Shown here in pieces: positions 34,804 through 61,766 of a stretch of DNA of 64,000 nucleotides. The notes beneath the pieces were generated by a model. The model made no database searches, was not told the origin of the DNA, and worked only from the letters and a program-made list of their open reading frames with translations. The DNA is taken from assembly GCA_963971425.1 (NCBI GenBank), contig OZ020522.1, forward strand, positions 4,128,168 to 4,192,167, written 5' to 3'. Source of the stretch: Bryoerythrophyllum caledonicum. Lineage: Eukaryota; Streptophyta; Bryopsida; Pottiales; Pottiaceae. Within the stretch, counting starts at the first letter, position 1, and every line of letters begins with the position of its first letter. The position numbers and the translations under genes were made by a program.

Positions 34804-36787
34804 ACAAGGTGGTGGCAACTTACAGTACGACTGGAATGACAGGAGTGGAAAGTACAATTCATGCATTCCGAATTGTGGCCAACTTGCATGAATGGGCTCC
34901 ATTGCAAACAGCACACCAATTCTGAATTGATTCCAAATGCCAGTGGGTCAGTGAGGGTGGTTCCTCCGTCCCGTCCTTTTGCTGTCCCTCCAAGGCCCCA
35001 CTTGTCACCACTTGCGCACCCTATTGCAAATGTCTGGGTCTTTGTTCTGATTGTTTGTGCCAAATAAGTTTTTCATGCAATTTTGGAATGCAAGTGGGCA
35101 CACCATAAGTCACTCTGTGACCGCCACCTCCCTATCACTACCACTCTATATTTGGTCCCAATTCCACCCCATAACTGCTCCATTTCCAACCCATTCACTC
35201 TTTGTCAACTCCAAATTAAGGCTTACTTTTGGTCAAGACCCTTGACTTTTGGTTGGCGCTAATGGGCGTACCTAGGGGCAGAAATAGGCTAAACATGGCT
35301 AACCACTTTGAAAATTCACAACCAATTCACATCTTATTGGAAAAATGTGGAATCACTTGGGTTGAGATTGTAATTCTATTGGATATCCCTGAAATAAATG
35401 TGTAAGATTTTGGGTATTGTTGTTTCTGAAAAAATATATGCACATTGTTTAAATTGTCAGTCATGGGGGGTTATACCTTATGCTATTTCAAGCCCAACGT
35501 GAACAAAACCACGTTTTGAAGAGTGCTATCTTTATTCCTTTCCTGCATGGATGCAAAATAGTGGCATAATTTTCCACCACATCAATGTTTTTTTTTGGCA
35601 CCAAATCCATAGAGAAAACAAAGACCAGTGGACGAAATTTGGAGGAAGCAAGTTTGATTGGCTTAGGAAGAGCAGGTGATGCCAAAAAACAATTAAAACC
35701 ATTAAAAAAAACACACACATACACATCTCTACACATTGCATAGACTTCTAGAACTATGTTCTATCTTGACTTAGTTCATTGCACACCAAAAATCACAAGC
35801 AATGGAGGTGTTTAGGTTAATCCTTAAACATTAGAAGGTGCCACTCAAGGCCACAATATTCTACATGTATGGTGTGGTATTTCAACACAATAAGGTTCAA
35901 ATATTGAAATGACCTCCAAATAAAAGATGTTAGTTTGAAGAATCCACAATCCAAAGGTAAAAGTTTTTCTAAACTTCAATTTTTTTGGGTATTCTACAGA
36001 GTAATATATGTGCATGTATATACGGTTCCCGATATTGATGTTTAAGGGTTAACCAAAATTCTAACAAACAAACATCAATCAGGAGAATACTCCAAGTGCA
36101 CCCGATCCAGGAAACCAGCCCGGGTATCAAAACTCGCTAACCATCCGGATATCCAAACCCGTCCATCAATCCGGGTAACTGAAACACGTACCCAAAGTTC
36201 CCGAGACGTTCCCAACGGCTCTAGCGTCACCACGAAGCTAATAACCATTGTCACTTCAGCTTGACGTTATGATTTGCTGCTGAATGTGTATAAAGCTAGA
36301 TGCAGGGTAATGGTCAAACTACAGTTTTGATGATCAGTGTAGTTAGGTTCTTTCATCATTTCGTGCTTATTTGATACTTTTATTAGAGGTTCTCTTCTCA
36401 TAGTGGTTTCCACCTCTAGAAATTTTCTACACTAGAAATATTAAAGTTTTCTAGGAAGAGGCCCATTTTCGGTGGCCCATTTTCAAGACTAGAAAGTAGG
36501 CAGAACCCTTGAAGATCAGCCTTTTTCCAAGGTCTAATTCCAGTTGTGATGTGATTTGAGATCCTAATGGTACTTTACCGTGTTTTTTAAATAAAGAGAA
36601 GTTGGTTTGTTTTCTTGGAGTTTTGCAGTTGATTGTATGTGGTAGAGCGATGGATGTTACTCTTGAGGTTAACTTTGAGAAAGAGATTCATGATTGGTCT
36701 TTACATCTTCAGCTCATCAAACTTGCAGGTCTTTCTGAGGTCGGGAGGATTGAAGCTTCACAGTAATTAGCTTGGATCTATTTGTTG
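34804..36787. other. Intergenic DNA and 5' region of XRCC4
   Basis: No gene is recognised up to ~36250. A repeat fragment lies at 35815-36000. TATAAAG at ~36288 and a short upstream frame (ATG ~36651, 38 codons, stop before 36770) precede the XRCC4 start codon and may belong to its promoter and leader. Confidence 0.4.
35815..36000 (+). repeat. Third copy (fragment) of the unknown ~1-kb repeat
   Basis: The fragment aligns with the reverse complement of 28438-28600: a shared AGGTGCCA start, TACATGTATRGTGT, GAAGAATCCACAATCC and AAACTTCAAT. It shows the repeat is a dispersed family and not only a local inversion. Confidence 0.75.
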
Positions 36788-38559
36788 ATGAAGAGAACAA
36801 TGGAGGAGGACAGAAACACATGTGCGCAGCTTGAGGTTCACGACGCTACTACTGCTGTTGTGAAGAAGATGCTCTTTGTCAAGAGCGCGTGGGAGCCCTC
36901 TAAAGCATTGCCGACAAGTTTCTTTCTGGCCGTCACTGATGGATGCCAGGCTTGGACTTTTGAAGGTGACTTTTGTGATCAAGGGCATAGGGTTTCGGAT
37001 GCGCAACAGGAAGTTATAGGCACTAAACTCATTTATTGTAAGACGTGACTCTTTTTCATGGGCATAGTCCTAGTCATGGTTTCAGTCATCGTCATGACGT
37101 AGACATAGCATGGTCTCATGGTTGCTTAGTCATGGCATGGTCATGGTCATAGTCATGGGCACAGGGTATCGTTTTCCTTTGTCTTCCAATTAACTTTTTG
37201 CTTTCCTCTTTATTGTGCATTGCAAAGGCTCTGAGGCCTATGTGAAGGAGAGAGCTGAGGTGTGGGACAAGGAAGTGGGCTGGGTGATGGAGAAGCTCAA
37301 ATTTCACCTCACCATGTCTCAACCAGGCGTCACTTACGGCTTCACAAAGACTCGAGATGATTACAGAAAGGTACAGTCCCTTTACAGAAGCACATGATAC
37401 AACAACAATTTCATTATAACAGGCAGCTTGGGTCAAAACAAACATTCTCTCTCTACAAGATAAACACTTGTTGCTGCATGCATTACCCGCTCTTTCCTAG
37501 CCCCTCAAAATAATAACCTCCATACATACATAGCATATAAAACAAACAAGGTTTTTGTAAAGGGAGGTGACTGTAATTCGCATGGTCCCATATGTGGCTT
37601 CAAATATGCCTATACACTCCTGGTCTGGAAATGATTTACCCTTAACCCTGAACCCTAGAGCCAAAAACTCTTGATCTAAACCCTAAACCTGACATGAGGC
37701 TTTGTAATTTTGACATGCTTGGACTATGTTTCATTATGGATTGGGTGCAGTTATCTTTTGAGATTCAGGACAAAGAAACAAACCTCTCCCTGAGAGCCAA
37801 TCTTCAAATGCTGGATGCATCACCAGAGAATGTCACCTGCGATTTCTTAGGTTTTCTGCTGCACGGGAACGAAAAGCTTTCGGTGAGCCCAGTAGAATGA
37901 TTTTCTTACATTCATCAGAACGATCGATCTAGATCTCGCCATGGAAAAAATAATGGTTGATATTAACTATCAATGACAGGTAGATTATCGGAGGAAATGT
38001 CGAGTCTTTGATCAGATAGTAGCAGAAAACAAAGCCCTTGTGGAGCTAAGCGAGAAGTACAGGAATGAGAACATTCAGTTCAAGCAACATGCAACTGAGA
38101 AGGTACAAATCCTCAGCTCCTTTGCTTCTGATTCCGTTGCTGAACCGCTTCTTCTTCTCTTGATGAAGTTCATGAACAGTTTGTAGGTCTCCTGAATAGC
38201 AAGAAGTCCAAATGCCGGGAGCTCAGGAAAGAGAATGCAAGGCTGACCGAGCTCTTGAGGGCCAAAGAAGACATTGAGAAGAACCTCTCCACTAGCTCTT
38301 CTAGTGACGATGATGAAGAGAAAGCTGATTTACAGCCGTTGTTGGAGGTAGTTTCGCACTTGCTTTGTGATGTCTGAATCTTCACATCCTTTCATCACTC
38401 ATCCTTCACTTCACTTGTGTGAAACAGCAAGGCGAAGGCTTGGTCAGTGAAGATGCTATGGTGAAAATTGAGCCTTCAAAAGATGATCCTCGTACCCTGT
38501 TTGCAGACGCACCTTACACTGGTTTACAAAGAAAAAGGCGCAGGCTTTTACTACACTAA
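36788..38559 (+). CDS. XRCC4: XRCC4, DNA ligase IV partner of end joining (six exons, 291 aa)
   Basis: Spliced model: 36788-36965, 37228-37370, 37751-37882, 37980-38102, 38180-38347, 38428-38559; all introns are GT-AG and the phases fit. The N-terminal head (about residues 1-150) carries the family's 'FFLAVTDGCQAWTFEG' strand pair and 'GVTYGFTKTRDDYRK'. It is followed by a long coiled-coil stalk (about 150-230), containing the F-x-x-L-L-N-S-K-K-x-K segment typical of plant XRCC4. The tail is acidic, with a basic stretch (LQRKRRR) that looks like a nuclear signal. Length suits the family (plant ~260-300 aa). XRCC4 forms filaments with XLF and stabilises ligase IV during non-homologous end joining. 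Two ATGs (36788, 36800) are possible starts. Confidence 0.88.
37374..37573. mobile_element. MITE family 'CTCCCTTTACA', copy 2, inside XRCC4 intron 2
   Basis: A 200-bp element with ends CAGTCCCTTTACA and TGTAAAGGGAGGTGACTG, flanked by TA on both sides (37372-37373, 37574-37575). Non-coding. The left TA begins at the second base of the intron, so the T of the GT donor of intron 2 comes from the target duplication. Confidence 0.75.
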
Positions 38560-38628
38560 CCTCGATTTTCTGCACATCTCTTTGGTTAGTCTAGCATGCC
38601 AAGTGACAATGATCTATCATTTTCAGTA

Positions 38629-38757
38629 CAGACAGCTCCCTTTACAACATCATCTGTAAGAACAGTTGTAGGAGGGAGCTAACTATTTTTGTGATAAATA
38701 CGAGAGGTGGTCTAGGGAGATGATAGTAGGCATATGGAGCTGTTGTAGAGGGAGCCA
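38629..38757. mobile_element. MITE family 'CTCCCTTTACA', copy 3, in the XRCC4 3' region
   Basis: Left end CAGACAGCTCCCTTTACAAC (after TA 38627-38628) and right end GCTGTTGTAGAGGGAGC form imperfect inverted repeats similar to copies 1 and 2. It directly abuts a LINE 3'-end fragment. Confidence 0.6.
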
Positions 38758-38860
38758 TACCGCTAATCCATGTCTGGTGGACATGGACTTTGTGGTGGCA
38801 CAAACAGACACTTTATTCACGCCGGCCCCTCTTGGAGATTGAAGTTCTTCTTCTTGGAGA
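38757..38860 (+). mobile_element. LINE 3'-end fragment (third copy)
   Basis: About 100 bases match the last part of LINE copies 1 and 2: GGTGGACATGG, a GACACTTTATTCACGCCGG core, and a (TTC)n-type end (GTTCTTCTTCTTGG). Nothing upstream matches the LINE, so it is a severely 5'-truncated insertion or a SINE that borrowed this tail. Confidence 0.75.
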
Positions 38861-39532
38861 GGGGGCTGAGATTATACTTTCTACACACTTTTAGCATTGT
38901 CCATTTACATAAGTGGTCCTATTATTCCATCAGACAAGTTTGTCATCCTCCCATGATTGCACTTGGAGCCACTTTTGAACCAGCTACACTAAACACTGAA
39001 TATAGTGTAGAGGGATTATTGATGTAGATCACTCACAATAATTTCCATCAAAGCATGTGCATGCCAAGTTCTTGTCGTGCACAAACACATCGTGCAAAGA
39101 TAACATCGTGCCAACAGGTGAGAGCGCACAATTAGAGGCAAACTTGGAGCAATGGTGACTATACTATCACCGTTGCCTCCGTAAACAACGAAAACAATAG
39201 TCCACAAAAGAAACTAACAACCTCCAACAACCTAGACTAGGGAAAAATAAATAAATACCCAGACCATAACATTTAGAAATTGGTCTACAAGGACCCCTTT
39301 ACTCGCCCCCTTCGCCCGTGCTGAAGCCCCTTTCACACCGGCGAACCACACAATTAACGTAAAGTGTATGAACGACCGAGTATGAAAACCTCTCAAGTCC
39401 AGAAAAATCACGGTGACCTATAGAAAAGACACTAATAGACCATGTAGACAAAGGATAAGTCGGGTGCAATGAGAGCCCCATCGTTAATCGCCTCTAACAC
39501 TTTTAATGGCTAGACCTTGTCTACGTAGACTC
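38861..39532. other. Region downstream of the retrotransposon pol gene; no gene
   Basis: Read on the minus strand this follows the pol stop codon and should hold the 3' UTR, polypurine tract and 3' LTR of the DNMT retrotransposon. A purine-rich stretch (GGGCGAAGGGGGCGAGTAAA on the minus strand, ~39297-39316) could be the polypurine tract. It is closely followed by TGTAGACC..., and ~260 bases further on by GATCTACA. No matching 5' copy of this sequence was found, so the LTR is unproven. Confidence 0.35.
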
Positions 39533-42500
39533 TTAATGTGCTAAACAATTTGGACACGACCATTGACCCACTGGTACCTCTAGAAGAGGTGGGGTTAGAC
39601 ATTCTAGATGCCACCCCGTAGAACACAAGTCACAAATGACCATTGTGGCTGCCCGTTTGGCACTACCACACAATTGACATCGCAATCCAGAGGAGATGTG
39701 AGAAATACCAGGGTTTACCGTTCCATCAATGTGTGGTAAATGGCAAGGAGCGCAATTGCGTGTGTGATCCTTCCATATCTTACCATCACGACCTTCCAAC
39801 AGTAACACTCCTGAGTGCTTCACCTCACGAACTCGCAAGATCACCCGTCCCGCTGTCACATCCAAGGTGGTGGGCGCTGCTTGCTGCAAATACACATAGT
39901 TTCCAGGAGTAAACCGTCGCACTTGCGGTCGGTAGCCTCCTCCCCGTATTGTAGCATAACGCAACGTATCCCGATGTTGAGCAATGGAAAGATTCTCCAA
40001 TGCCATAGGCATCACCCGTTTGAACAAATCCGCACGTTGCTCACACACTTGAGCCCACGTATCTGGATTGTCCATGTTAGCCAACACGGTGTCAGCATCT
40101 GCCTGAATGGCCTTCGGTAATACCGATTGCCTTCCAAACAACAAAAAGTAAGGAGAAAAGGACGCCAAAGATGCTTGCTTACTAAACCGGTAGCCCATGG
40201 CTATCCACGGTAATTGCAAGTCCCAATCTTGATGATGTCCCTTCTTCAAACTATACTTCCAAAGCCCCCTCTTGACGGTTTGCACCATGCGCTCTGCCAA
40301 GCCATCCGCTTCGGGGTGATCCCTCGAAGTAGTGCGGTGATCTATCATCGCTTGCTCACACAACGTTTGAAACTCACCCAAGAATTCCCTTCCTTGGTCT
40401 GTGAGAACTTCCGCTGGAGCTCCAAAGCGGCTCAATACACGATCAAGGAAAGAGTAAGCGGCCCCCTCACTAAACTTGTCAGGCAACGCTACCAACTCTA
40501 TCCATTTCGAGAAGTGCTCGATCATCACCAACACATACTTATTGTGTCGAGGTGTCATTGGTAATGGACCAGCAAAATCTAAGCTCCACTTATATCCCAA
40601 GCCCATAATTGGCAATGGTTGCAATTGTGGCATCGGAGCGTTAAAAGACGCTCGTACCCGATCACAGACCATACACCGGGCTACCAAGACTTGAACTTGA
40701 GTTTGCATTCCTCGCCACCAATAGTGAAGCTGGAGCAAGCTATAAGTCCTCCGCACTCCAAAGTGCCCAAGGTCTTTATGCGTGTCCTTGATGAGCTTCA
40801 CTCTCTCAAATGGAGTTGGCACAACCTTTCGCGTGCCATCCGGCCACACCCTCACAAGGTGAGTCCTCTCCCACACGAACCGTTTGGCTCGTTGTGAGAC
40901 CCGATCTCTCTCCTTAGCGGACCACGCAAGCACCACTTCTCCATTCTTTAGAAAATGCATCACGTTCGTGTCTTCAAAGATGTCTTTGGCGCCCCCAGAT
41001 TCTTCACCGACATCCTCATCTACCGTGGCCACAGTAGAAGCTCCGGTGTCATCTCCACGCATCGCCAATACACTTAGAAAGGCCGAACAATGCCAACCTG
41101 GCAACGGATCGGCCTCATCTTCCCCGTGCCACCTAGCGCCCGTAGCATCCGCTTGGTTTGGAATTGGATTGCGGCTAAGGCCGTCGGCATCCATATTCAC
41201 CAATCCCGCTCTGTGCACCACCTTGAAGTCGTATTCCATCAACATCAAGGCCCACCGCGCTAGCTTGCCTGTTAGTTTGTCAGACTCCATCAACCACTTT
41301 AAAGGTTGATGATCCGTGACTAACAAGAACTCGTTACCATAAAGGTAACATCGAAAATGAGCAATTGCCCATATGGCAGCCAAACACTCCCCTTCATACG
41401 AGCTATACTGGGCCTCTGCATTATTGTTGGACCGGCTGGCGTACGCAATGACAAACTCCTTCCCGTCGTCATCCATTTGCGTCAACACCGCACCAATTCC
41501 CAATGCGCTCCAATCTGTGTGTAGCTGGTATGTCCTTCCGGCTATTGGCCTTCGAAGTATAGGTGCCGATGCCAAGCGGTCCTTCAACTCTTGAAAGGCC
41601 ACCTCTTGCTCATCTCCCCATATCCAAGGTTGATCATTCCTTGTCAACATGGTTAATGGCTTGGCAATAGCACTGAAAGTCTTCACAAACTTTCTATAGT
41701 AATTACACAACCCCAAGAATGCACGTAGCCTACTAATATCCCTTGGTCTAGGAATAGACATCACTACTTCAATTTTACTAGCTACCACACCCAATCCACT
41801 TGGATATATCATGTGGCCTAAGTACTCGATGCGGTCAAAGTAGAATCTGCACTTACCAGGGTGCAACTTCAAACCGTGGAGCCTCAATCTAGCAAACACT
41901 TCCATCAAGTGTAGCCTATGTTGCCTTCGATTCGTGCTAAAGACAACGATATCGTCAATGTAGCATCTCACGAAATCCAAGCCCGAGAATACTCGGTCCA
42001 TAACCCTCTGGAATTCGGCAGGAGCATTCTTCAATCCAAATGGTAAGAATTTCCATTGGAACAACCGGTCCTTTCCATCTTTGTCAATGCCCCAGAACGC
42101 GGTCTTCTCTTTGTCTTCCTCTTTCAGTCCAATCTGGTGGTATCCAGAGCGCAAGTCCAATGTACTAAATACCTTGGCGTGACCAATAGCCTCAAAGTTC
42201 TCCTCCGGCGTTGGCATCGCATAACGATCCGACTTGGTGAATTTGTTAATCCTCCTATAGTCCCCGCACATCCTCTTCTCCGTCCAATTACCGTAGATAT
42301 CTTTCTTGGATGGCATAACCGTCGCCGATGCATACTCGCAATCCGGTGGAGCCAACTCCACTAGCCCCGCAGCCACCAACTCCTCCGTACGAGCACGTAT
42401 CATCCTCCGTTCAACGTCGCTATACTTGTACGGCTTCCGGTATATTGGTGCTTTGTCCGTCAAATTGATATGTACTTCTTGCCCCTTCAATACTCCAAGA

Positions 42501-42658
42501 TCTTCAAGACTAAAGGCAAAACAATCTAAGTACTCCCTGAGGAACTCATGTTCCTCTCTCTCAACTGCTCCATCCGCCAGGCCTACCATCGGTTTCCAAG
42601 TATCCTTGGTCACCGCCTCCTTCGGTTCCTTTGGAGCAAGATTCTCCTTCCTTGGTTG
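39533..42658 (-). CDS. Pol: RT, RNase H, integrase and PHD finger (after readthrough stop)
   Basis: This stretch is open in the same frame as the upstream methyltransferase frame, directly after its TAG. It has about 1,040 residues, ending at the TAA 39533-39535. RT has 'CGDYRRINKF' and the 'CYIDDIVVFS' box (~residue 235 after the stop). RNase H has 'LHTDWSALGIGAVLTQ' and 'YSSYEGECLAAIWA'. The integrase zinc region (H-x-x-x-x-H, then CMVCDRVR) precedes the DDE core 'WSLDFAGP', 'VLTDQGREFLG' and 'EADGLAERMVQT'. Where chromoviruses have a chromodomain, the last ~50 residues form a PHD finger: CQLC, CDLC, GWHLEC, CPNC with Cys4-His-Cys3 spacing. There is no ATG near the start of the frame, consistent with expression by readthrough. 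No inactivating change was seen. Confidence 0.88.
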   Translation of the reverse strand, partial: QPRKENLAPKEPKEAVTKDTWKPMVGLADGAVEREEHEFLREYLDCFAFSLEDLGVLKGQEVHINLTDKAPIYRKPYKYSDVERRMIRARTEELVAAGLVELAPPDCEYASATVMPSKKDIYGNWTEKRMCGDYRRINKFTKSDRYAMPTPEENFEAIGHAKVFSTLDLRSGYHQIGLKEEDKEKTAFWGIDKDGKDRLFQWKFLPFGLKNAPAEFQRVMDRVFSGLDFVRCYIDDIVVFSTNRRQHRLHLMEVFARLRLHGLKLHPGKCRFYFDRIEYLGHMIYPSGLGVVASKIEVVMSIPRPRDISRLRAFLGLCNYYRKFVKTFSAIAKPLTMLTRNDQPWIWGDEQEVAFQELKDRLASAPILRRPIAGRTYQLHTDWSALGIGAVLTQMDDDGKEFVIAYASRSNNNAEAQYSSYEGECLAAIWAIAHFRCYLYGNEFLLVTDHQPLKWLMESDKLTGKLARWALMLMEYDFKVVHRAGLVNMDADGLSRNPIPNQADATGARWHGEDEADPLPGWHCSAFLSVLAMRGDDTGASTVATVDEDVGEESGGAKDIFEDTNVMHFLKNGEVVLAWSAKERDRVSQRAKRFVWERTHLVRVWPDGTRKVVPTPFERVKLIKDTHKDLGHFGVRRTYSLLQLHYWWRGMQTQVQVLVARCMVCDRVRASFNAPMPQLQPLPIMGLGYKWSLDFAGPLPMTPRHNKYVLVMIEHFSKWIELVALPDKFSEGAAYSFLDRVLSRFGAPAEVLTDQGREFLGEFQTLCEQAMIDHRTTSRDHPEADGLAERMVQTVKRGLWKYSLKKGHHQDWDLQLPWIAMGYRFSKQASLASFSPYFLLFGRQSVLPKAIQADADTVLANMDNPDTWAQVCEQRADLFKRVMPMALENLSIAQHRDTLRYATIRGGGYRPQVRRFTPGNYVYLQQAAPTTLDVTAGRVILRVREVKHSGVLLLEGRDGKIWKDHTRNCAPCHLPHIDGTVNPGISHISSGLRCQLCGSAKRAATMVICDLCSTGWHLECLTPPLLEVPVGQWSCPNCLAH

Positions 42659-42664
42659 CTATTG
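42653..42664 (-). promoter_or_regulatory. Probable programmed stop-codon readthrough site (CAA-TAG-CAA-CCA)
   Basis: Read on the minus strand, codons are CAA TAG CAA CCA. This fits the UAG-CARYYA consensus first recognised in tobamoviruses, including the CAA on each side. Both sides are open in one frame for more than 1,000 codons, and no other stop lies between protease and the end of integrase. Confidence 0.75.
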
Positions 42665-45600
42665 GATGCCATGCGAAGGAGACTTTTCTCCCTCCACATC
42701 TACCAAGCCTCCAAGTCCTTCCAATTGGCTTAGTTTGCCAATTGTCTCCCTTTGCTGAGCTGTGTGTTCTCCCACGAACATATTCTCCACAGTCTCCTCC
42801 AAATCCTTCGTTTGGTGGGCCAATCCCCTACTTCGGCTCCCATCCTTCACTCCATGAAGATGATCCTCAGTCTTGAGTGTCGCGAAAAGATTCGCGGAGC
42901 CCCACATGTTCCATGGGTGAGGTGCCAAGGCCTTCTCGCCCCCAACCACTTTGCCTGTCACCTTGACAGAGACAAATGGTTCTCCGGCCGCCCGCAACTC
43001 ATAAGACCCCATGTAACCAGTAAAACTAGAAGCCATCCGCTTCTGTTCTGCCACTAGCAACGAAACGATCCACGTCAAGCAATTTAAGTCCATCGCTTGT
43101 CCAAGTAAAAATCGTCGTTGTTGCTCCGAGATCCCGGGCGCATCGGTAGTGCCCGTGGAAAATCCCATGGCTCTCTCCCGTTCATCCGCATTAGGCTCCA
43201 CCATCTCTTGAGACAAGGAATCCCACACAAGACCCGGGCCGTTATCCTTAAAGGCATACGACCGAGCAAAACTAACCAACGTGGGCAATGCCCTACGTGG
43301 TTCTCCTTTGCGGTTGACGACCGCCAAAGGTGCTTGGTCGTCATGATAAACGCGTCGTGGTGCCCTGTGAGGATCCAAAATATCACTCACGTAGACATCC
43401 GGCCGTTTAATTCGACCCACAGCGGACTGTAACAACTCTTGAGGTGCTAAATTCGTCCACCACAATCGTGGGCGATGTGCTCGCGATCCCACCGCAGCGG
43501 CATCCAACAACACGGACATACCCAGAGTCTGGTGTATGCGGTGCATGCCCTCTAATGTCCTCGACCTCGAGCTACTCATCACTGGTACATTCTCCACAAT
43601 GTAACCTGGTGGTCGCTTCTGAGAGGTTTGAAGCAAAGACAATACCCGAATCATATCATGAAACCGCGAAGAACGAGTGTCTTTCAACCCGTTTTGATGT
43701 CCAGCCATTGACAATCCTTGACATGGCCATCCCGCGATGACAAGGTCCACATGGCCAACACGTTGAATATCCTCTGCTAAAAGCAAAGCAATATCACCAA
43801 CAAGAGTAGAAAATGAAGTCTTGATGGCACTAGTGGCCAACAAGTTTGGAAATTGGGTCCTCAATCGCCGTGAATGCCGCTTAGCCACGTGCCTTGCTGC
43901 CTCATCAACATCTACGTAGATGTAGCGTTTGACCTTCATCCCTGCTTGCAGCACTGCCGCCAAGCCACTTCCAATCCCTCCGAACAACTCCAACAACACA
44001 ATACCATCCTCTGGTACCTTCCACCGAATGGTGGAAGTGTCTAGACGTGGGCCCAAGTCTTCGTCCACTCGAGAATCATCTTCCGCTTGTGGGAGTATCG
44101 AATGCTGCCAAACATCTTCAATGACCTGTGCCGCATCTTTCTGAAGTTGAGTCGTGGTCCTCGACGCTGCTTCTATGCCAGGTTGATACGTCTCTATATC
44201 TCCACCACTTGTGTCACCCACTTGGGCATCCATCTCGTGAAGTGTAGGAGTATCCATCGAGAAAGTATCACAACCCTTGTGAAACCATGATGGTCCCACA
44301 TCCATACCTCCTGAGAAGGCAAACACGTCTGCAAGATTGCCAGTCAGAACTCGAATAAAACGAGCTGGCAGCTGAGCCTTCCGCCCATCTCCTGCTTGCC
44401 ATCCTGGTCTATAACTTGCGGTTTCCTCCCAGAAATCCAAGGTGAACCCCATGGGGTATAGCACCGCCGAGCCCACCAAGACATCGTATGACTTGGCCTC
44501 CGTTACTATAGCTTTCACCTTCATAAAGCTTGCATCCTCGACATCATCTTCGTTGAGTCGTAAAATCAACTCCTCCTTTGTGATGCCTGTAGCATGCTCC
44601 GTACCCCCCATGGAAGTGCTAATTGTCCATGGACACTTCTCCAAAGTGTCCCTAGTCAAACCCAACCCCTCACGGGCAGATGCTCCCAGCATCAATGGTT
44701 GAGCTCCTGAATCCAAAAGCACTCGTCGAGGCACAAATACCCTCCCCTTGGGCCCAACAAGTTGGAAAATCCCCTGGGAGTTGTCAACCACCACCACACC
44801 AGGTGTAATGGATGACCTCTCGATTGCAGGTCTGGCGGCCATGGTCTTGACACGCATGGCTGCTGAAAGCAGCCCCTCCATGTTGTCCTCTTGACTCTTA
44901 TCCACCTCTCCTCCAACCACTTCCGTCTTCAACGCATTGACGCCCGTGGAGTCACCCAACTCACACATTTGAGCCGCCATCTTGAAGACCGCCGCTGCAT
45001 TGAAGCCCTCTTGTGACATCAATTTAGCAGAAAATAGTGAAGCCTCACAAACCACGTTTGCCGCTTCTCTCACCACCGTACTAGATGGCTCTACAATCCC
45101 AATGCTAGGGCGAGTTGTTGGCACCCCCCGACGCGTTGGAGGCACCATGGAAGATGTTGGCACCATCTCCTCCAACGTGAAAGACTCTGGCAATCGAGCT
45201 TGCCGGTTGTCCTTACCATGTTGAGGATCCAAGATTGGACTTGCTCCACGTGGAACCTCCTTGGTCACCGGTGTTTGACTCCGCGTAAGGGCATAAGCCT
45301 CCCGTGGGCCCCCCGTAATAGCAAGTGCCATGCCACTTAGCATATAGTCCCCGAATTCGTCATCATCGGGCCTAAACCCACCCCCAGCATGAAAACTAGG
45401 AGTGACTTGGGGCTTCTCACTCACTGAAGCAGCATTCGCGCTCATGGCCGCCATCTTGGCCTCCAACTCCGCAAATTTGGCCTTCCAACCTTTCTTGTCT
45501 CCTCCCGAAGACTTGGACTCCTTCTCCTTGTTGCTTGCCTTGGCTCCCTTGCCTCCAGAAGGTTTCAACTCAGGGTGAAGCTTCCAACACTTAGCCTCGG

Positions 45601-45802
45601 AATGTCCCTTGGCACCACAACCAGAGCAATAGCCACCGATTTGAGGTGTAGAGGACTTGCCTTCCTTGCAATCCTTCCTCAAATGCCCCGGTTTGCGACA
45701 ACTAAAGCATAATGCTTCAGTATCGGTGGCATAGGAGGGAACCGCAGCCTTGGCCACCTTGACTTTCTCAGGAACCTTCTCTTCTCGTTTGAGAAATCCC
45801 AT
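42659..45802 (-). CDS. Nucleocapsid knuckles, protease and DNMT3-like cytosine methyltransferase
   Basis: A 1,047-residue frame ending at TAG 42659-42661. Two CCHC knuckles (residues 32-45 and 59-72, both C-x2-C-x4-H-x4-C) are nucleocapsid-like. An aspartic protease active site 'VLLDSGAQPLMLG' lies near residue 365. From about 598 to 930 a complete, unpermuted C5 methyltransferase follows: motif I 'ELFGGIGSGLAA', motif IV 'GWPCQGLS' with the catalytic Cys, motif VI 'ENVPVM', motif VIII 'VGSRAHRPRLWWTNL', and motif IX/X 'ERERAMGF...RRFLLGQAMD'. The motif VIII wording is close to DNMT3/DRM (HRARYFWGNL). It would methylate cytosines, perhaps in newly copied element DNA. The ATG at 45802 overlaps the gag frame; gag-knuckle fusion was probably lost by an indel. 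Confidence 0.88.
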   Translation of the reverse strand: MGFLKREEKVPEKVKVAKAAVPSYATDTEALCFSCRKPGHLRKDCKEGKSSTPQIGGYCSGCGAKGHSEAKCWKLHPELKPSGGKGAKASNKEKESKSSGGDKKGWKAKFAELEAKMAAMSANAASVSEKPQVTPSFHAGGGFRPDDDEFGDYMLSGMALAITGGPREAYALTRSQTPVTKEVPRGASPILDPQHGKDNRQARLPESFTLEEMVPTSSMVPPTRRGVPTTRPSIGIVEPSSTVVREAANVVCEASLFSAKLMSQEGFNAAAVFKMAAQMCELGDSTGVNALKTEVVGGEVDKSQEDNMEGLLSAAMRVKTMAARPAIERSSITPGVVVVDNSQGIFQLVGPKGRVFVPRRVLLDSGAQPLMLGASAREGLGLTRDTLEKCPWTISTSMGGTEHATGITKEELILRLNEDDVEDASFMKVKAIVTEAKSYDVLVGSAVLYPMGFTLDFWEETASYRPGWQAGDGRKAQLPARFIRVLTGNLADVFAFSGGMDVGPSWFHKGCDTFSMDTPTLHEMDAQVGDTSGGDIETYQPGIEAASRTTTQLQKDAAQVIEDVWQHSILPQAEDDSRVDEDLGPRLDTSTIRWKVPEDGIVLLELFGGIGSGLAAVLQAGMKVKRYIYVDVDEAARHVAKRHSRRLRTQFPNLLATSAIKTSFSTLVGDIALLLAEDIQRVGHVDLVIAGWPCQGLSMAGHQNGLKDTRSSRFHDMIRVLSLLQTSQKRPPGYIVENVPVMSSSRSRTLEGMHRIHQTLGMSVLLDAAAVGSRAHRPRLWWTNLAPQELLQSAVGRIKRPDVYVSDILDPHRAPRRVYHDDQAPLAVVNRKGEPRRALPTLVSFARSYAFKDNGPGLVWDSLSQEMVEPNADERERAMGFSTGTTDAPGISEQQRRFLLGQAMDLNCLTWIVSLLVAEQKRMASSFTGYMGSYELRAAGEPFVSVKVTGKVVGGEKALAPHPWNMWGSANLFATLKTEDHLHGVKDGSRSRGLAHQTKDLEETVENMFVGEHTAQQRETIGKLSQLEGLGGLVDVEGEKSPSHGIQ

Positions 45803-46665
45803 GGCCGCTTCTCCTCCAATAAATTGATCTCAATTCTCTCGGACGTCTCGAACACAAATCTCAAAGTCGGTGGCTCACCCAATCGCAATGCCTCATTGCG
45901 AACTAATGTCTTCAGCTCCTTCTCTAAGATGCTGTACCAGTGCTGCACCGCTTGTTGTTCCGTGACTCCGTGAGTAGCAGAGATCAGTCTCCGCAATCTC
46001 GCATGAGCTTCTCGCAAGGATTCATCTCCTCCTCGCGCAAAAGACCTCAATGCCTTCATCTTATCCGCTCGTTGACCTTGATAGTCTCGACGGATCTGTG
46101 TGAAGAACATGGCCGTAGGGTTAAACGGAGGTGGAATAGCCACCGTTTCCATCGGTTGGCTCAAGTCCTCGGCACTACTTGTGCCCTCCTCCTACTTCCC
46201 CTTTCCCACACGTGATGGTACACTCGGCGCTCCGCCGAATACATCCGCATAATTCGGTGCATAGAAATCCCTCCATGCCAATATCTCCGTGAGGTGAGCC
46301 GCCTCGAATTCTCCATAATCCGCTAACGGAGCTCCTTCTAGACATCCAAATAACGCCCTCCACACCATGTAAGGGTTGAAGTTGGGGTTGCGAGACTTCT
46401 GGAGTTCACACCACATGGTGAACTCCCTCTTGAAGTCATCCGCTTCGATAGTGCCCGTGGCACCCGAAAACCGTCGCACCCCCCGTTCTCCTCCTCCTCC
46501 ATATGGTGAAGCCATCTCCTCCCAATCAAAAATTGATTGCAAAGGTTTTCTTGATGGGGAACTTGCACTACGTACCAAAGATTCCACCACAAACTCAAGT
46601 TCTTCTACTATCGGTTGAACCGTATCCTCCTCTTCCTTCGATTGAGTGGTAACTTCCTCCACCAC
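45679..46665 (-). pseudogene. Gag of the DNMT retrotransposon, with stop and frameshift
   Basis: A single frame from 46665 to 45679 is interrupted by one TAG at 46192-46194. It then overlaps the knuckle/methyltransferase frame by ~120 bases in a different phase. The N-terminal section has 'ASPYGGGGERGVRRFSG' and 'ADDFKREFTMWCELQKSR'. The section after the stop has the helical gag-type region 'AMFFTQIRRDYQGQRADKMK' and 'LREAHARLRRLISATHGVTE', as in Ty3/gypsy capsid proteins. The particle protein cannot be made as a continuous chain from this copy unless the stop and shift are bypassed. The stop context (AAG-TAG-GAG) is not a known readthrough signal. Confidence 0.7.
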
Positions 46666-46751
46666 TCGTTCACGAACGCCTACCGCAAATGGGGTGTTTC
46701 TCCGAGAGAAACCGGGCCCCTTCCACGTCTCCAGATTGAGAATTGGTTAGC

Positions 46752-47408
46752 TCAATCAAAGAAGCGCCATGCTTCATGAGTGCCCTTCTTCTCCGGAGGG
46801 TAGATGGTGGGTGGTACTTCCCAATCGAGTAGCTCCAAGGTGAGTGTGTCCCACACACTGCTGGCCCGCTCTCGCCACGTACCCACTTCCCACTGCCACG
46901 TAGTATGAAATACGAAGCCTTCACTCTCAAACTCGGTAAAGATGAGGGAGAACGTGGGCAATTGGTTCCCTCGGCGGAAATCCACCACCTCCACGGTGTA
47001 TCTTGACCCAACGTTCTTGAGGACAACGGCCTTCTCTCCAACCACAAGATCCACGGCTTCAACTTGGCCTCGTGCACGACAAAGAGGAGCTCGAACACCC
47101 TCCTTAGCCCGAAGCGCTCGAACTTTGCGCACCCCACCAAGTGAAGTCCAATACTTCACGGACTCTTCGCTTAGCACCTTCGTGCCTGGCTTTTGCAAGT
47201 CTTGAGTCCCGGTTCGAGACTTGGCTATAGGAGATAACTCAAAATCCCTACCACTAGAGCTTGCCTGGGAAGATGAAGATTTAACTTGCAAATCTTGGAG
47301 GCAAGTAATCAATTGACTAAGGGTTTCGGTGCTGATCTCTACCGTGGATGCACTAGACTCTTTTGATTCCTTCTGCTTTCCTCCACTATCCATGTCCCAT
47401 AAGCTCAA
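46752..47408 (-). CDS. N-terminal frame of the DNMT retrotransposon, function unknown
   Basis: A 218-codon frame immediately upstream of gag, on the same strand but in another phase. The N-terminus is Ser-rich and helical (STETLSQLITCLQDLQ). The middle has a compact hydrophobic/aromatic segment (VVGEKAVVLKNVGSRYTVEV, FVFHTTWQWEVGTW) suggesting a folded beta-rich domain that I do not recognise. It may be an extra element protein or the detached N-terminal part of gag; the 87 bases to the gag frame contain a stop in its own phase. Confidence 0.5.
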   Translation of the reverse strand: MSLWDMDSGGKQKESKESSASTVEISTETLSQLITCLQDLQVKSSSSQASSSGRDFELSPIAKSRTGTQDLQKPGTKVLSEESVKYWTSLGGVRKVRALRAKEGVRAPLCRARGQVEAVDLVVGEKAVVLKNVGSRYTVEVVDFRRGNQLPTFSLIFTEFESEGFVFHTTWQWEVGTWRERASSVWDTLTLELLDWEVPPTIYPPEKKGTHEAWRFFD

Positions 47409-47639
47409 TGCAACCCACTCTTTTTACGTGGTTGTATTAAGTGGGCTCACAATGGATGTTAGGGGAATGCTAGAATTTCACTTCTTGTTCACTATCATAT
47501 GCCACACTTAGCTCACGTGAAGCAACACATCAATAATGTGCACAACAATTTGATGAGAACAACCCAAAGTCTAGCCATTCATGATCCCCACAATCCAAAT
47601 TCCTAGCCGAAGTACAAGAGGAAAGCGACAATGTCACTC

Positions 47640-47880
47640 ACCATCCCATACCTCTACTAGTCACTCCCCAAAGGTGGCAAAGTGCAAGAAAAAGGTGACT
47701 ATGGCACCCAATATCCCACAACTCTTCCAATCACTCTCACAAGCAAATTGGCAAGGGTAAGAAGTGGGCAACAATGGTACCCACTATCCCACACCTTCAC
47801 CTCTTACAAGAATGACGAAGAGCAAGAAGAAGGTGACTATGGCACCCGCTCTCCCGCACTTTCACCACTTACTAACAAGA
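47640..47880. repeat. Imperfect tandem repeats in the retrotransposon leader
   Basis: A unit of roughly 80-85 bp containing GGTGACTATGGCACCC, a TCCC/CTATCCCACACC phrase and AAGARSAAG words occurs about three times with indels. It is untranslated leader sequence when read on the minus strand. Confidence 0.6.
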
Positions 47881-50039
47881 TGCATCATACAAACTTGTCA
47901 TTCCCCCAAACAACCGACTACCCCCTCCCTACACGGGTCCGGATACGTTACCTTGTTGAAATAGTCTTGGGCCTCCGAATAGCTACCACTAGCTACTCTT
48001 AAAGGAAACCCTAAGTCTAATCTATGCCTTATAATGCCTCGTACAAGAGGTCGGCCTTTCTCTAGAACTAAATAAGTTCTAGGATAACACCCTAAAATTC
48101 TAAGTGATCAAAATCACTAGAAATGAGCAGCTTTTGCACTAGAATGTGCACACAGCTATCCTATGAAAATGGAAGAAAGAAGTGTAGCTCAAGCCCTCTA
48201 TGGCACGAATACAACGCACAAGTTGTGTCCCCCAAATCTTAATGAATTCAAAATTGCAACGTTTACCTCGTGCCCCTTTTTCACCAACGCTTGCACGCCA
48301 TCACAGAACACCGTGTGTCCGTCATGTGAAACCCTCGCCTTCGTGCACACGCTCTTCTCCACATCCACCGAGACCTTCGCTGCTCATGCACCGGCCCTTC
48401 AGTCCTCAAGGATCCACGAACCCTCGCCCACCAGCTGCCTCAAGGCTCCCGTCAATGATGACAGACTGATCCTACTACTTGAGATTCTGCGTTCTCCTGC
48501 AAATTTGGTGGTGGTCGGTGATCTTCACATCGACGTGAGCCTCAACAAACTCTGCCACCTTTGCAACAAAGACCGCAATCTTCCTCAACTCTTGCGGTCG
48601 AGGCTCATGAGTCTATGGAGCTTGTCCCAACTTCAATGACTGAAGAGTTTTGGGTTAAGCGTTGCACCCAAACATCGGCAGCTTCCACATCGTCCAGTAC
48701 CGGCCGTCGTAGTACCCGGGGCTCCGGTGGTTGTGGCGTGATACTCCGTCCACGTTCACGTCAAACTCCAGGCACGGGTACGGTTCTGCTGGATTACACA
48801 CTCCGCCAGGTTGCTCCTGAAATCGGGAGGAGCGATTACTGATCAAGTCTGGTTGTACTCATCACCGCATCAGTTTCTTCCGACGCGCACATCAGGTCAA
48901 ATACTACCACTCATCACAGGATCGGGTTCTAGCTCGATTACCTCTGCTCTTGCAGACTGAATCCCACCTAGTACCAGGAGATATGAGTGCGCTAGCTACT
49001 TCTGGTTTCGGTGTCGGCGTACTAGATTCAACTCCTCTAGACTTCGGTGATACTAAATATCACCTCTGCTCTTGCGTACACGCAACCCTACGCAACACCG
49101 ACCTACACCTCGTGCACACGCTCTTTACACCCCGAGAGCTCCGCAGCAGGTGCACCCACTACCGAGACCGCCTCCTCTGTTTCGGGCTCTGCAGGGAAGG
49201 AGTCCAGGAGAAAGAATGCGCAATCTGTGAGCGTTCCGCTTCTGTGCCCACTGCCGGCTCTTACCTCTCTCTTTCTTTCTAGCTCTTCTCACCGAAACTA
49301 GGGTATGATAATAGGAGCAAGAACTCCGCACGTTTGTGCAGAAGATTGTACGCATTCAGTAGCTCCACTGCGCCCTCCTGCTATTGCCGAGCTTGACTCT
49401 GATCCGCGCTTCTCCCCGGGCACTTCACGTTGCTCGCTCTCGTACCGCTACCTCTCGTACCGCGGCCCCTGCCTTTCCCGGAACGGCCGCCAAACCCTCG
49501 CCCATGAACGCAAATAACGCCCTTGAAATTCGGAACCAGCGATTACTGATCACGTTCGGTCGTACTCATAACCACATCAGGTTTATGAGGTGAACAGCCT
49601 CTAATCGATAGCCAATGTAGATAAGGGAAGTCGGCAAAACAGATCCGTAACTTCGTTGCGTTGCACGTGCTGCCTGTATCGGCACTCGGGCAACTGAAAC
49701 TCCAGCTCGTGCAAAACCCGGGTCACCTCCTCCAGCGACCGGATCTTTGCACACACTTGCTCATCCGCAACAATCGTGCTGCAGCTGCTCCAGGAGCTTT
49801 CGTTTGAAGAACAAAAGCGTGCCTCCGAACCCGTCTCGTACATTCCAGTATCGAATAGCACTGGCGATGCAACGTCGCACAATGCTCCAACAGTGTTCGT
49901 TGCACTTTCTTCAAAGAGTATACTTGCAAGGGCGGCGAAACTTGCTGAAGTGGGGTCTACTGCCAGGGACTCCACCTTGATTGCTTCACTCCAGCACCAC
50001 GTCCACAACTCACTCCCCACCGTCTCACAAGATTCAAAG
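47881..50039. other. Retrotransposon leader with captured or unknown sequence
   Basis: Apart from the rbcS fragment at 48655-48850, no domain is recognised in this GC-richer stretch. One phrase (GCGATTACTGATCA... followed by GTACTCATCACCGCATCAG) occurs near 48832 and again near 49550, showing internal duplication. Several ~100-codon frames exist on both strands but resemble nothing I know. It may be host sequence taken up by the element. Confidence 0.4.
48655..48850 (-). pseudogene. rbcS: Fragment of a Rubisco small-subunit gene (rbcS)
   Basis: The minus strand encodes 'YPCLEFD' followed by '[18 protein letters not shown]'. The second phrase is the most conserved segment of plant Rubisco small subunits. 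Upstream, '[10 protein letters not shown]' in a neighbouring frame suits the preceding helix, showing a one-base shift. Beyond the final Cys a stop follows after two residues, and the rest of the protein is missing. The fragment sits in the leader of the DNMT retrotransposon, in the same orientation, so it looks like host sequence captured by the element. A simple insertion site coincidence cannot be excluded. Confidence 0.8.
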
Positions 50040-50470
50040 AAACCCTTCTAGGTGTATTAACTATCGTGGTTACACCCGTTGCCACGACATGATCTTTCTC
50101 AAGTAACAAATAAGTGATAAACACTCACAAATCACAACAAGTCAAGTCCATGCCACTCTTCAAGAGTGAAAACATGATATGGATGAGGCTAACGATGTGC
50201 AACACGCACACACCTTCACCTCATCACGTGGGAGACTCAACTTGAGAAAGATGAGTCTCCCTCAACCACACGTGGAGGTCACCCGGGTTCCAAGTCCCGA
50301 GATGAGGTGTCGAAAGACACCACGGTTGCCCTAGCCGCCACGCGGCACTAAACCTAACCCTAATCTCCCATTAGCACTAAGTCTTGGGCTCTCCGGTAAC
50401 TCCACAACTCTCTAGATGGTTTCTATCCGAATACCATCTATACAAACACCTCCATGCGCGGATCCTGACA
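50040..50470 (-). repeat. Possible 5' LTR of the DNMT retrotransposon
   Basis: Read on the minus strand it begins TGTCAGGATCCGCGC, a start typical of Ty3/gypsy LTRs, and continues through a stretch with hairpin potential (GTGGTGTCTTTCGACACC). The inner end was not fixed, no primer-binding site was recognised, and no matching 3' LTR was seen, so this is a weak call. Confidence 0.3.
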
Positions 50471-51437
50471 TTCTGATTGGGTATTTCTTCTCAAGCAAGT
50501 GTGTGTCAGTCAACAATTGCATGTAAATTTTCAATTAGTGTAGGAAATTTCAAATAGTCTGGTCTACACTATATTCACGGAACCGTGTAGCATCCAACAA
50601 TTCATCCATACTTTTGCCATCCATCAATTATAGCCATCACACTCTACAACACTTTAAATACTCCTACATTTGGCTGTTAGAATCTTCTCATCCCTCAAAT
50701 AAGTTATAATCATCTAAGTCATAATTGCTGCTCATTTATAACCTCTACTGACTTATAGCCTGTTCAAATGTGGAATCTTCGCTCGCTAACAACCTTCAAT
50801 AAATTGAGCCTCTACAAAGTTTTTACCACCTCCATCCACCAGCGCCATATAAATAACAATGGGTAGACAAATGTGCTAAAACTCACAAAATGACAGTAGA
50901 TACCTAAACCAAATGGAGTGGTTGCGGATTCAATTCTACCCAAACCAAATAGAGTGGTCACACATTCAATTTCTGGTTGTCAAATCTTCTCTCTATGTGA
51001 TAGAACTACCGCAATTTGCCAATACAACAACTCGTGTGCCACGGGAAAGGCCAAGAAAAAAAATAAAAAAATAAAAAAACTCACAAATTGACCATGTTCC
51101 CAACGGTCAACAAATTCTGGCGTGATTCTGCTATTGCGTGTCTATTGGCCGAATACGTACCCCAGCGGTAGAGACGCACACATATACTGATACAAATACG
51201 TATCTGCGGTAGACATAGCTTCCTGAAGCAACCTCACTTTGAATTCACTCTGAAGCAATCGCATGATCAGTCCTTCTCATCATTCCATGTTCAACTTCTT
51301 CACGTGAAAGAGGAGGAGGTGAAGCGATTGGAGTTCTGATCAGACAATTTGGTTACATCTGCAGGGGTTTAGGTTTTTAGGGTTTGCTCTTTCTTGGTGG
51401 GAATGGAGTAGGGTTTTGAGGGCGTAGGGTAAGCATC
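50471..51437. other. Intergenic DNA upstream of the membrane-protein gene
   Basis: No gene is recognised. The last few hundred bases should hold the promoter and 5' UTR of the gene starting at 51438. No clear TATA box is seen. Confidence 0.4.
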
Positions 51438-53344
51438 ATGCAGTTTTGCATTCGGTGCTCAGGGGCTACGGCGTGGTGCGGCCATTATGATGCTGTGCAG
51501 ACCTGCGCTATCCTGCTGCTGTACTTGCAGGTCAGTGAAATCGAGTTTGAAGGCCTGTGACCATGGATTTCGATGTGTTGCGGTCTTTCTTCATGTCGTA
51601 GGGTTTAATGAGAGGTGAGGAGTTGGGGAAGGAAATCTCACACATACTGAATCATCTGACTGAACGATTCTCTTCCTTTGTTTAAATCTTAGTTGCTGAG
51701 AATTGTTTGAATTAGGGTTGGAAATTCGAATTTGAAGGCATGAACATTTACTTTCGATGTGTTGCGGTCTTTCTTCATGTCGTAGGGTTTATGAGAGGTG
51801 AGGAGTTGGGGAAGGAAATCTCACACATACTGAATCATCTGATTGAACGATTCTCTTCCTTTGTTTTCATCTTAGTTGCTGAGAATTGTTTGAATTAGGG
51901 TTGGAAATTTGAATTTGAAGGCATGAACATTTACTGTGATGGTGGATTTCGATGTGTTGCGGTCTTTCTTCATGTCGTAGGGTTTATGAGAGGTGAGGAG
52001 TTGGGGAATGAAATTTCACACATACTGAAGAGTCTGATTGAAGGTCTGATTGAACGATTATCTTCCTCAGTTGCTGATAATTGTTTGATTTAGGGTTGGA
52101 TATGTGACTACTGCTTTGAGTTTGATTCTTTTACTATGATGTGTTGCGGTCTCGCTTGATGTGTTGAATACATCCTGGGGTTTGTGAGAGGTAGATAGTC
52201 CGATTGTTCGTGGCTTGTTTCTTGACTGGATGGTGGCTCTTTGGAAACAGGTGGGCTGTGCACTAGTGGGATCGTTTGGAGCTCTATACACCGGCATTCT
52301 GTTGGCCAACTTGGCACTCGCACTGTTCGCATTGATTGCAATTGAGAGCGGAAGCCAGAGCCTCGGTCGAGCTTATGCGGGGTTCTTGGCTGTGTCTCTC
52401 GTGCTTGATATCGCCTGGTTCATCCTCTTCACCAATGAAATCAGGTGAATATTGCCACAAGAGCTTCTAGCATGTAGAGTCATTTGTAAAGTCATCCAAG
52501 GTTACCCCTCTTTTTTTTATCCATAATGGAAGAGCCTAATGGTGCCTCGACTAGAATCCTTCAATTAACCTTGGTGGTCTCTCAACTCAAGTTATCGAAG
52601 TAGTTTTAGTCTTTTCTGAGAAAGAAGGAGAGGTCATGCTGAATCACGAATCTTAGTTGCTGATTATAGATTTCGCATTCATGTCAATTGACGGATTGAT
52701 TTTCTTTGGCAGGCACTTGTGGAACGGAACGCAGCTGGATAAGTTTGGAGCCTTCTCTGTGAAGCTAATGTTCTGGATGCAAGCCACGGGAAGTGGGCTG
52801 CGTTTCCTGTCGTCTTTTCTGTGGTGTCAGATGTACAGACTCGGTGCAATGTCAGGGTCTTCGACGGAGTCGCTGCAGCCTGTCGACTTTGATGCCAGGA
52901 ATTCCATTTTGAGTTCTTACGACATGGGCAACGTAAGGCTGGGAGACGACACGTTCGAGTCCGAGGCCATTGGAGGCTCCATATACGACCGGGCCGCCTT
53001 TGCTTCTCTTAATGACAGCTTCAGTCGTGAGGATGACCTTGACATCGAGGTACGCATAGAATTCACTACCTCACACAGATTATCTTGTTTCTTTAGGCTA
53101 GTGAGAAAGAATCAGACTAATTCTGGAATCGAATAGGGTCCAAGTCGGATTTATCGTAGATTTTGCTTCCTGATGCTTGATTTACTATGGTGAAAGAGTA
53201 GACTAATTGCTTTAGGATACGATAATCAATGTAGTTGCATGTAAGCTTCAGGAACTGATTGTTTGTGTGTGACAGAACAACGGCCACATGTCAGAGGACG
53301 AGAGCCAACTGCAGAGCCCACTCCTGCGGCACCACGAATCTTGA
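51438..53344 (+). CDS. Four-exon small membrane protein, AGTRAP-like (230 aa)
   Basis: Spliced model: 51438-51530, 52251-52444, 52713-53049, 53276-53344; introns GT-AG, frame continuous. Exon 1 encodes a short Cys-rich N-terminus (MQFCIRCSGATAWCGHYDAV). Hydrophobic segments follow at about residues 22-48, 47-70, 80-97 and 112-137, e.g. 'ILLANLALALFALIAIESG' and 'VSLVLDIAWFILFTNEI'. The layout and wording recall the type-1 angiotensin II receptor-associated protein family, whose plant members are uncharacterised membrane proteins. The C-terminal ~90 residues are polar, Ser/Asp-rich and probably cytosolic, ending in 'LLRHHES'. Family assignment is from pattern memory only; the gene structure itself is well supported by in-frame splicing. 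Confidence 0.75.
51575..52170. repeat. ~185-194-bp tandem repeats in intron 1
   Basis: The phrase GATGTGTTGCGGTCTTTCTT, followed by a shared ~150-bp segment (GAGAGGTGAGGAGTTGGGGA, then CTTCCTTTGTTT and TTAGGGTTGGA), starts near 51572, 51757 and 51951. A diverged partial copy lies near 52138. The array fills most of intron 1. Confidence 0.9.
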
Positions 53345-53688
53345 AGGTCTGGTATGATGTATCATGATTTTGTAAAAAATGCACCCTTGTTCAGGATTAG
53401 TAAGCATCCTTCATCTCATTTAGTATACCACCTTCTAATGTACTTTAATATGCACCTGGCATGTACAGCAGCTGTTTCCCTTCCCACCAGTTTTGACCTC
53501 CCGGTTGTTTAGTGAATCCACATGATACAATTTTTTGATGATTTTCTTTGGAGAGTGTTCTGAGGTGAATCTTGTAGAAGACAGCTCGTATTTCCACAGC
53601 TTGTCCGTGTCAAAAAGGCGAGATTGCCAACCAAAATCCAATAGAATCAAATGATGTTACAACTACATTTATGGGGTTCCAACTAGTT
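53345..53688. other. Convergent 3' region between two genes
   Basis: This stretch holds the 3' UTRs of the plus-strand membrane-protein gene and the minus-strand TFIIB gene, which end 344 bases apart. No other feature is seen. Confidence 0.6.
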
Positions 53689-55707: not shown

Positions 55708-57064
55708 TGGAAATCACTCCCTCTAAAAAAAAACCCAAGCGACAAACATTCGTCAACTGACAACAATCCTCCCTAAGCGAGAACCAACGACGATCTCTTG
55801 GCGATCAGTCATCTGTTTCAACCGTCCTCTTGTCGGTATCAAAGTAAAAAACCTCACAACAACGATGAACCGATTCATCTCTCTCTTTACAAAAACACGA
55901 GCCCGTGTTCGCCACAAAACCCTAACCCCAGACACACCATCCTAAACTCTGGAATCCCGTCACAACTCGTTCACTTTAGTCGCACTCCGACTTACGTTTG
56001 CTACTCTTTCCTCCTGTTCTTCGTTTCGAGTTTTTTTTCTTGGAGAGCACGAACTTGGAGGTCGCGTTCAAGTTGCGACAACAACCGGTTGCATTGCGCT
56101 ATCTGAGAAGATCAGCAGCAACTCGACAAAATGAGCGCCGCGGCCGTCAAGTGGCCAACTTATGCTGCTCAGCGATTCCTAAACTAGCTAAGATTAGCTC
56201 CTCTAAATGATAAAAGCGCTAACGGATATCATCGATACCCAGGTCATACCCGGGTATCACATGTGTATGTCACAGATGTTGCAGGGTATGTCCTAGGTAT
56301 CTCCACATATTATGTACTTAAATAGATTACTTAACTACTTCAAAGTGAGGTTGTAGCATTTCTCAGCTGCTGTTGGTTGATACCCGCAACCGCACGGACC
56401 GCAAAATGGTGCCTTTCAGTTGGTCGCTTGTCAACTCATCTTCCCAGAATCTGCGCCAGTTTTGCGTTGAAGAGTGCAAAGGCAGTGGACTGGCAACTTC
56501 TGATGGAAGATTTTGCTACAGGGAGAATTTTCAGGCTCCAGTCTGCTGCGGCGGAAGACGCGTCCAGTTCTGGCTGCGGGAAGCTGCAGGACTGTCGCGA
56601 TGGAGTCTCTCACGTACGAAGAGGTGGAGTCGTGATGGCGGCGCAGCTTTCGAGCTCTGGAGTTTCCGAGTAGTTGGTGGGCGATGGAGTCACCGTCTCA
56701 TCTGTTGCAAGAGCGCGTCGTGAGTCTCTAGCCTTTGGGGAGGATTGGTTGTTTTGTGTCTTCCACAGTTGTGTTGTGGAGGTTTGGATTTGGAGGCTGG
56801 AGGGATTGATCTTGAGGTGAATGTTTGTTTGCTTTGTCGGTTGTGTGATGTAGACGTTTGCCCTTTGAGAGTGTTCGATGCTTGCTGGGAATCCTTCATA
56901 GCTGCACGCTTTCTTAGCTTGTGCAATTCTTTGCTCTCGTTCACTATCTATCGAGGTCATCCTCATTTATTGTTCGCGTTGTTCTCTGGCGTTTCGTTGG
57001 TTTCAGCAGACAGGGATTTGTTTGCGTTACGCGCTTCGGGGAAGAAGAGGAGGGGAATTGATCA
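55708..57064. promoter_or_regulatory. Divergent intergenic region between TFIIB and the glucanase
   Basis: The two genes are head to head with ~1.36 kb between start codons, so both promoters lie here. A frame of 116 codons (56373-56723, plus) and others are unremarkable and may be 5' UTR or an unrecognised exon. No TATA box or known operator could be assigned. Confidence 0.4.
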
Positions 57065-61764: not shown

Positions 61765-61766
61765 TA

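Follow-up and report, generated by a model that had tools for sequence, protein, structure and literature searches.

How much of its own cytosine methyltransferase would a retrotransposon make, and on which DNA would the enzyme act? The question is raised by an element on the minus strand of a 64,000 nucleotide (nt) stretch of the moss Bryoerythrophyllum caledonicum (contig OZ020522.1, positions 4,128,168 to 4,192,167), here called the window, within which positions are counted. An earlier note on this DNA had proposed a Ty3/gypsy-type retrotransposon of a plant, encoding a DNMT3-like methyltransferase, and this outline was borne out. Sequence comparison with the family showed similarity over 39533-46746, and the element is almost certainly, judging from its sequence, a Ty3/gypsy retrotransposon bearing a DNMT3-type enzyme. 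The methyltransferase lies in one frame with the protease, in front of a stop codon in a type I readthrough context, and reverse transcriptase (RT) follows in phase.

All features of the element given below are on the minus strand. The first open reading frame, ORF1 (42659-45829), runs for 3171 nt without an internal stop from zinc knuckles through protease and methyltransferase to a TAG codon, and matches the Marchantia protein P0005 at 42% over 1005 columns. ORF2 (39533-42658), in the phase of ORF1, encodes RT, RNase H, integrase and a PHD finger, and matches ORF2 of L014, a 9285-base contig (CADCWO010000201.1) filed under a cyanobacterial metagenome-assembled genome (MAG), at 64% over 1030 columns; the methyltransferases of the two elements are 54% identical. 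The earlier note had described a single 3.1-kb frame without stops from protease to RT. The length and the content of ORF1 agree with this as far as the methyltransferase, but the TAG at 42659-42661 precedes RT.

In the window ORF1 ends in the residues GIQ, followed by TAG CAA CCA (42653..42661), and ORF2 runs on in phase from the next codon. In L014 the corresponding sequence is ATK followed by TAG CAA TCA, at a similar distance past the methyltransferase and likewise with ORF2 in phase; the frame directly downstream of the stop is 1041 codons long in the window and 1047 in L014. The protein adjoining the stop is dissimilar by eye between the two. Both stops match UAG CAR YYA, the signal by which plant viruses direct type I readthrough (PMC11166343). 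The hexamer CARYYA follows 3 of the 1590 TAGs in the window (∼0.2%) and 2 of 190 in L014, both sites being counted in. The RNA downstream of the stop gave structure z scores of −1.56 in the window and −2.82 in L014, with different folds, and was not used as evidence. Two diverged elements have thus kept both the position of the stop and its type I context, and programmed readthrough at the UAG is likely.

The ends of related proteins, which show the position of the stop and not its context (the latter was seen in the DNA of the two elements), were compared among 182 listed relatives, all with a methyltransferase match, of which 96 extended at least 45 amino acids (aa) beyond it. None of the 25 with 70% or more identity to the window ran into RT. 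Eight of these 25, clusters representing 529 member sequences, ended in IQ at 115-122 aa past the methyltransferase (121 in the window). A further five (P0076, P0081, P0086, P0137 and P0172) ended in VDL(E/K)EYVE at 80 aa and may be a subfamily that inherited a nonsense change, and the other 12 terminated elsewhere, contig ends and stops not being distinguished. RT was present in 19 of the 96: 12 belonged to clades further removed, at 28-46% identity, and the other seven were annotated gene models from bryophytes.

The methyltransferase domain (43025..44038; Pfam DNA_methylase, E 1.8e-13) falls among C5-cytosine methyltransferases and carries all of the motifs named in the earlier note. The presumed catalytic cysteine codon, in GWPCQ, lies at 43721..43723 and corresponds to C106 of the domain, which is invariant in a 33-row alignment. 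The motifs follow the canonical order I, IV, VI, VIII and IX-X, and motifs VIII-X are DNMT3-like. Profile scores were 7.6e-29 for DNMT3A as against 1.1e-13 for DRM2 chains, the DRM rearrangement itself depressing the score of the latter, and DNMT3 was the nearest C5-methyltransferase family by both profile and fold. The sequence therefore identifies the domain as DNMT3-type. A DRM type was rejected since the permuted motif order of DRM is absent, and the suggestion of a DRM-like motif VIII did not hold for the same reasons. The domain may plausibly have been captured from a de novo enzyme of the host.

Relatives were sought in protein and contig collections. Each protein search scored ∼8000 candidates sharing most words; one yielded 65 relatives and another 202, of which 120 were listed. 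The named sources among the matches listed were Marchantia polymorpha, Marchantia paleacea, Calypogeia fissa, Riccia sorocarpa, Sphagnum troendelagicum, Sphagnum fallax and Closterium, and no Klebsormidium nitens protein appeared by name among them; the remaining listed relatives were mostly metagenome proteins, with one MAG labelled Obscuribacterales. A lineage with a DNMT3-type enzyme directly after the protease is thus found in sequences from across the bryophytes. Among genome contigs five relatives were found: besides L014, there were four loci from Streptomyces at 29-30%. In viral contigs the methyltransferase profile gave 13 phage-like loci at 24-34% identity, and ORF2 gave no match. 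L014 is evidently eukaryotic contamination of a cyanobacterial bin. One relative protein, P0069, is filed under 'Candidatus Obscuribacterales', and the public bins holding L014 and P0069 are probably contaminated. In a more distant clade (P0045, P0048, P0050 and P0056) the order is RT-RNase H-methyltransferase-integrase-PHD. Two quick, midpoint-rooted trees, one of 32 methyltransferase rows and one of 14 RT rows, were broadly congruent, which suggests that the methyltransferase probably changed its place inside the polyprotein rather than being captured afresh each time.

The remaining domains conform to a Ty3/gypsy element with the methyltransferase inserted between protease and RT. The retroviral-type aspartic protease (44459..44731) was recognized by reading of its DSG motif in LLDSGAQP, with a Pfam Asp_protease_2 score of 0.0037, under the cut-off. 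Downstream are the RT core (41807..42283; RVT_1, 7.1e-32), RNase H (41231..41620; RT_RNaseH, 1.4e-34, and RT_RNaseH_2, 1.2e-31) and the integrase, with an H2C2 zinc domain and a catalytic core (40313..40807; Pfam 1e-14 and 2.2e-13). The top PDB sequence match of ORF2 was the Gag-Pol of Ty3 (Ty3-G; 4.9e-93), and Ty3 RT (9.9e-72) shared the head of the ranking with it. A gag with CCHC knuckles is also present, as judged from similarity to Marchantia gag, the Pfam scores being slightly under their cut-offs. Its N-terminal part (46192..46746; P0005 by blastp, 1.6e-26, 49% over 89 columns) closes at an in-frame stop, the remainder (45679..46191; P0005, 9e-36; Retrotrans_gag, 0.0011, under the cut-off) continues in the same phase, and the knuckles lie at 45587..45709 (zf-CCHC, 0.0012, slightly under the cut-off; zf-CCHC_4, 0.64). 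At its C-terminus the integrase bears a PHD finger (39545..39679; PF00628, 1.5e-9; PDB PHD chains from 3.9e-11), which was absent from the earlier description. Directly 3' of the ORF2 stop is a conserved non-coding block of 38 nt (39456..39493), 89.5% identical to L014 6750-6787, as compared with 59-64% for the coding DNA of the two; it had no match among viral contigs. An Rfam scan of 36000-52000 gave nothing at the gathering threshold.

The window copy is probably dead. Its gag is disrupted by the stop at 46192-46194 and by a change of frame that falls between 45679 and 45829, ahead of ORF1, and no convincing pair of long terminal repeats (LTRs) was found with it. The frames of ORF1 and ORF2 are both still open. 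No LTR pair was found by a repeat search of 34000-56000 or by self-blastn of 35000-55000, and comparison of the 3' flank (36000-39330) with 47300-64000 gave a best E of 0.063. These searches therefore gave no support to the right limit of 50470 in the earlier note, and family similarity was seen within 39533-46746 alone. The two ends of the L014 contig have gag sequence in common, as though the assembly had closed over one LTR. The frame at 46752-47423 matched none of the eight family sequences compared. Matches to an initiator-methionine primer site numbered five in the window, where 4.46 were expected, none of them near the 5' side of the element, and there were none in L014.

Chromoviruses, which are Ty3/gypsy elements with a chromodomain, resemble the element in having a chromatin-reader type of domain at the integrase C-terminus, but the domain in the window is a PHD finger. 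The best PDB matches of the finger were CHD4, PHF12 and KDM5B, which we take to recognize, for the most part, H3 tails lacking H3K4 methylation; that the finger would direct the element to silent chromatin is a guess made on this ground.

The kind of element is already known. KnitGypsy-Dnmt3 of K. nitens (de Mendoza et al., 2018; PMC5890265) is likewise a Gypsy LTR element of a streptophyte, whose coding region includes a DNMT3-type enzyme with key residues kept, and the earlier note rightly placed the element of the window with a published kind. The enzyme of KnitGypsy-Dnmt3 is, however, described within the Pol polyprotein ORF, with RT, whereas that of the window lies in the Gag-protease frame before the stop, and readthrough would join it to Pol. 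The repeats of KnitGypsy-Dnmt3 are described as arranged in a DIRS-like manner; the whole comparison with the window is one of published descriptions. SymbioDIRS-Dnmt3 and SymbioLINE-Dnmt of dinoflagellates are also retrotransposons with cytosine methyltransferases, but they are DIRS elements with a tyrosine recombinase or LINEs, not Ty3/gypsy; the SymbioDIRS enzymes produced CG methylation in yeast (PMC5890265). The Tj1/Tosmo Ty3/gypsy elements of fission yeasts have an in-frame stop with conserved flanking bases that is read through into a longer fusion, but there the codon is UGA, at the Gag/Pol boundary, and no methyltransferase is present (PMC10085805). Plant RNA viruses share the stop codon and the 3' hexamer with the window, but the genes concerned are viral (PMC11166343), whereas the window holds a retrotransposon whose readthrough is predicted. 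A 2025 survey gives streptophytes and dinoflagellates as the earlier sources of retrotransposon DNMT3s (PMC12344493), and a 2019 paper states that they are absent in land plants such as tracheophytes (PMC6338049). The main text of PMC5890265 mentions neither PHD, moss nor Marchantia, its one mention of bryophytes concerning host Dnmt3 genes, and searches of open-access literature showed no report of such elements in bryophytes, with a PHD finger or with type I readthrough. It appears to be new that these elements occur across mosses and liverworts, that a leaky stop parts the enzyme from RT and that a PHD finger is present.

These data can be accommodated in the following mechanism. In intact copies the main product would be Gag-protease-methyltransferase, terminating at the UAG, and a minority product made by readthrough would extend through RT, RNase H, integrase and PHD. 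In other retroelements leaky stops hold Gag-Pol lower than Gag (PMC10085805). The methyltransferase would be packed into the virus-like particle at Gag-like abundance and would mark the element's own complementary DNA (cDNA) before or at integration, and the PHD finger would steer integration towards particular chromatin, the part played by chromodomains in chromoviruses. Because the enzyme sits on the Gag side of the stop, we infer that packing in quantity and action on the cDNA is the simplest reading; action on cDNA was proposed by de Mendoza et al. for their own elements (PMC5890265). On balance we lean towards a decayed moss copy of a bryophyte Ty3/gypsy lineage, to which readthrough, particle packing, cDNA methylation and PHD steering may be ascribed. 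Methylation of its own cDNA, taken singly, is possible though somewhat doubtful. The full account, of an old bryophyte lineage that makes DNMT3 at Gag abundance by a tobamovirus-type leaky UAG, packs it, methylates cDNA before integration and aims its integrase by the PHD finger, is offered tentatively.

Several observations weigh against this mechanism. The gag of the window copy is broken, and of the 25 close relatives 17 have their ends elsewhere than at the UAG. The two DNA sequences that span the stop share descent, the residues preceding the stop vary between clades, and a methionine at residue 24 of the window ORF2 leaves room for separate initiation. A CpG depletion that might point to self-methylation is not seen in the element (observed/expected 0.77, as compared with 0.73 for the window; 0.82 for L014), so composition gives no hint of it. 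In a yeast assay the Klebsormidium retrotransposon enzyme gave no methylation, a result that its authors considered inconclusive (PMC5890265).

The alternative that survives best is that the methyltransferase targets host DNA or chromatin, or RNA, rather than the cDNA. Genomic DNA is the substrate of DNMT3-type enzymes, the PHD finger hints at chromatin contact and the CpG content bears no trace of self-methylation, but the Gag-side placement would favour a role in the particle, and we regard a host target as a lesser yet serious possibility. RT might otherwise be reached without readthrough, either by splicing around the stop, as occurs in Ogre elements, or by translation started anew at ORF2. 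The seven bryophyte gene models that fuse methyltransferase and RT, perhaps through predicted introns, would suit the former, and the methionine at residue 24 the latter. However, in both DNAs a single stop parts two frames of the same phase, for which splicing has no need, and the first methionine of the L014 ORF2 is at residue 117, inside conserved RT, so that separate initiation would truncate the enzyme; with CARYYA behind both stops, this alternative is unlikely. That the UAG is a further nonsense mutation in a dead copy, the ancestral polyprotein having been one frame, is very improbable: the window gag does already have a stop and a frame change, and one protein joins methyltransferase and RT in the more distant clades (12 of 96), but the position is kept in the eight close clusters and, at a similar distance, in L014, and both DNA contexts match a motif so rare after TAGs of the window. 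That the assembly was joined wrongly here, or that a retroelement struck a host methyltransferase gene at this one locus, is scarcely conceivable and was rejected, since P0005 aligns along ORF1 and the fusion is seen again in other genomes and in metagenomes, with Pfam matches to both protease and methyltransferase in independent contigs (P0024, P0026, P0027 and P0033).

Elsewhere in the window, an intact neighbouring glucan endo-1,3-beta-glucosidase matches a protein of Ceratodon purpureus at 78% identity over 99%, the nearest named among the best 120 of 889 matches, which by itself makes a moss other than Ceratodon the most likely host. Frames near the element are presumably TFIIB-like and TPLATE-like. 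A LINE-like element lies at 20634-21224 (plus strand), with related frames to ∼28100 and a GC skew down to −0.71 in this stretch; its first frame contains GDIETNPGP, which we take to be a 2A-like motif. An open frame of 343 aa at 60426-61457 (minus strand) is presumably Tc1/mariner transposase-like, and 51555-52130 holds three tandem copies of a unit of ∼184-195 nt.

The placement of the leaky stop leads to a testable prediction of dosage, namely that the enzyme is needed in Gag-like amounts, and such a dosage would speak for an enzyme at work inside the particle or on the cDNA more than for a scarce catalyst of the Pol kind. As Marchantia is a tractable laboratory plant, the question of self-cDNA methylation is open to experiment. 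If the mechanism is correct, these elements would pre-mark their new copies rather than evade the mark.
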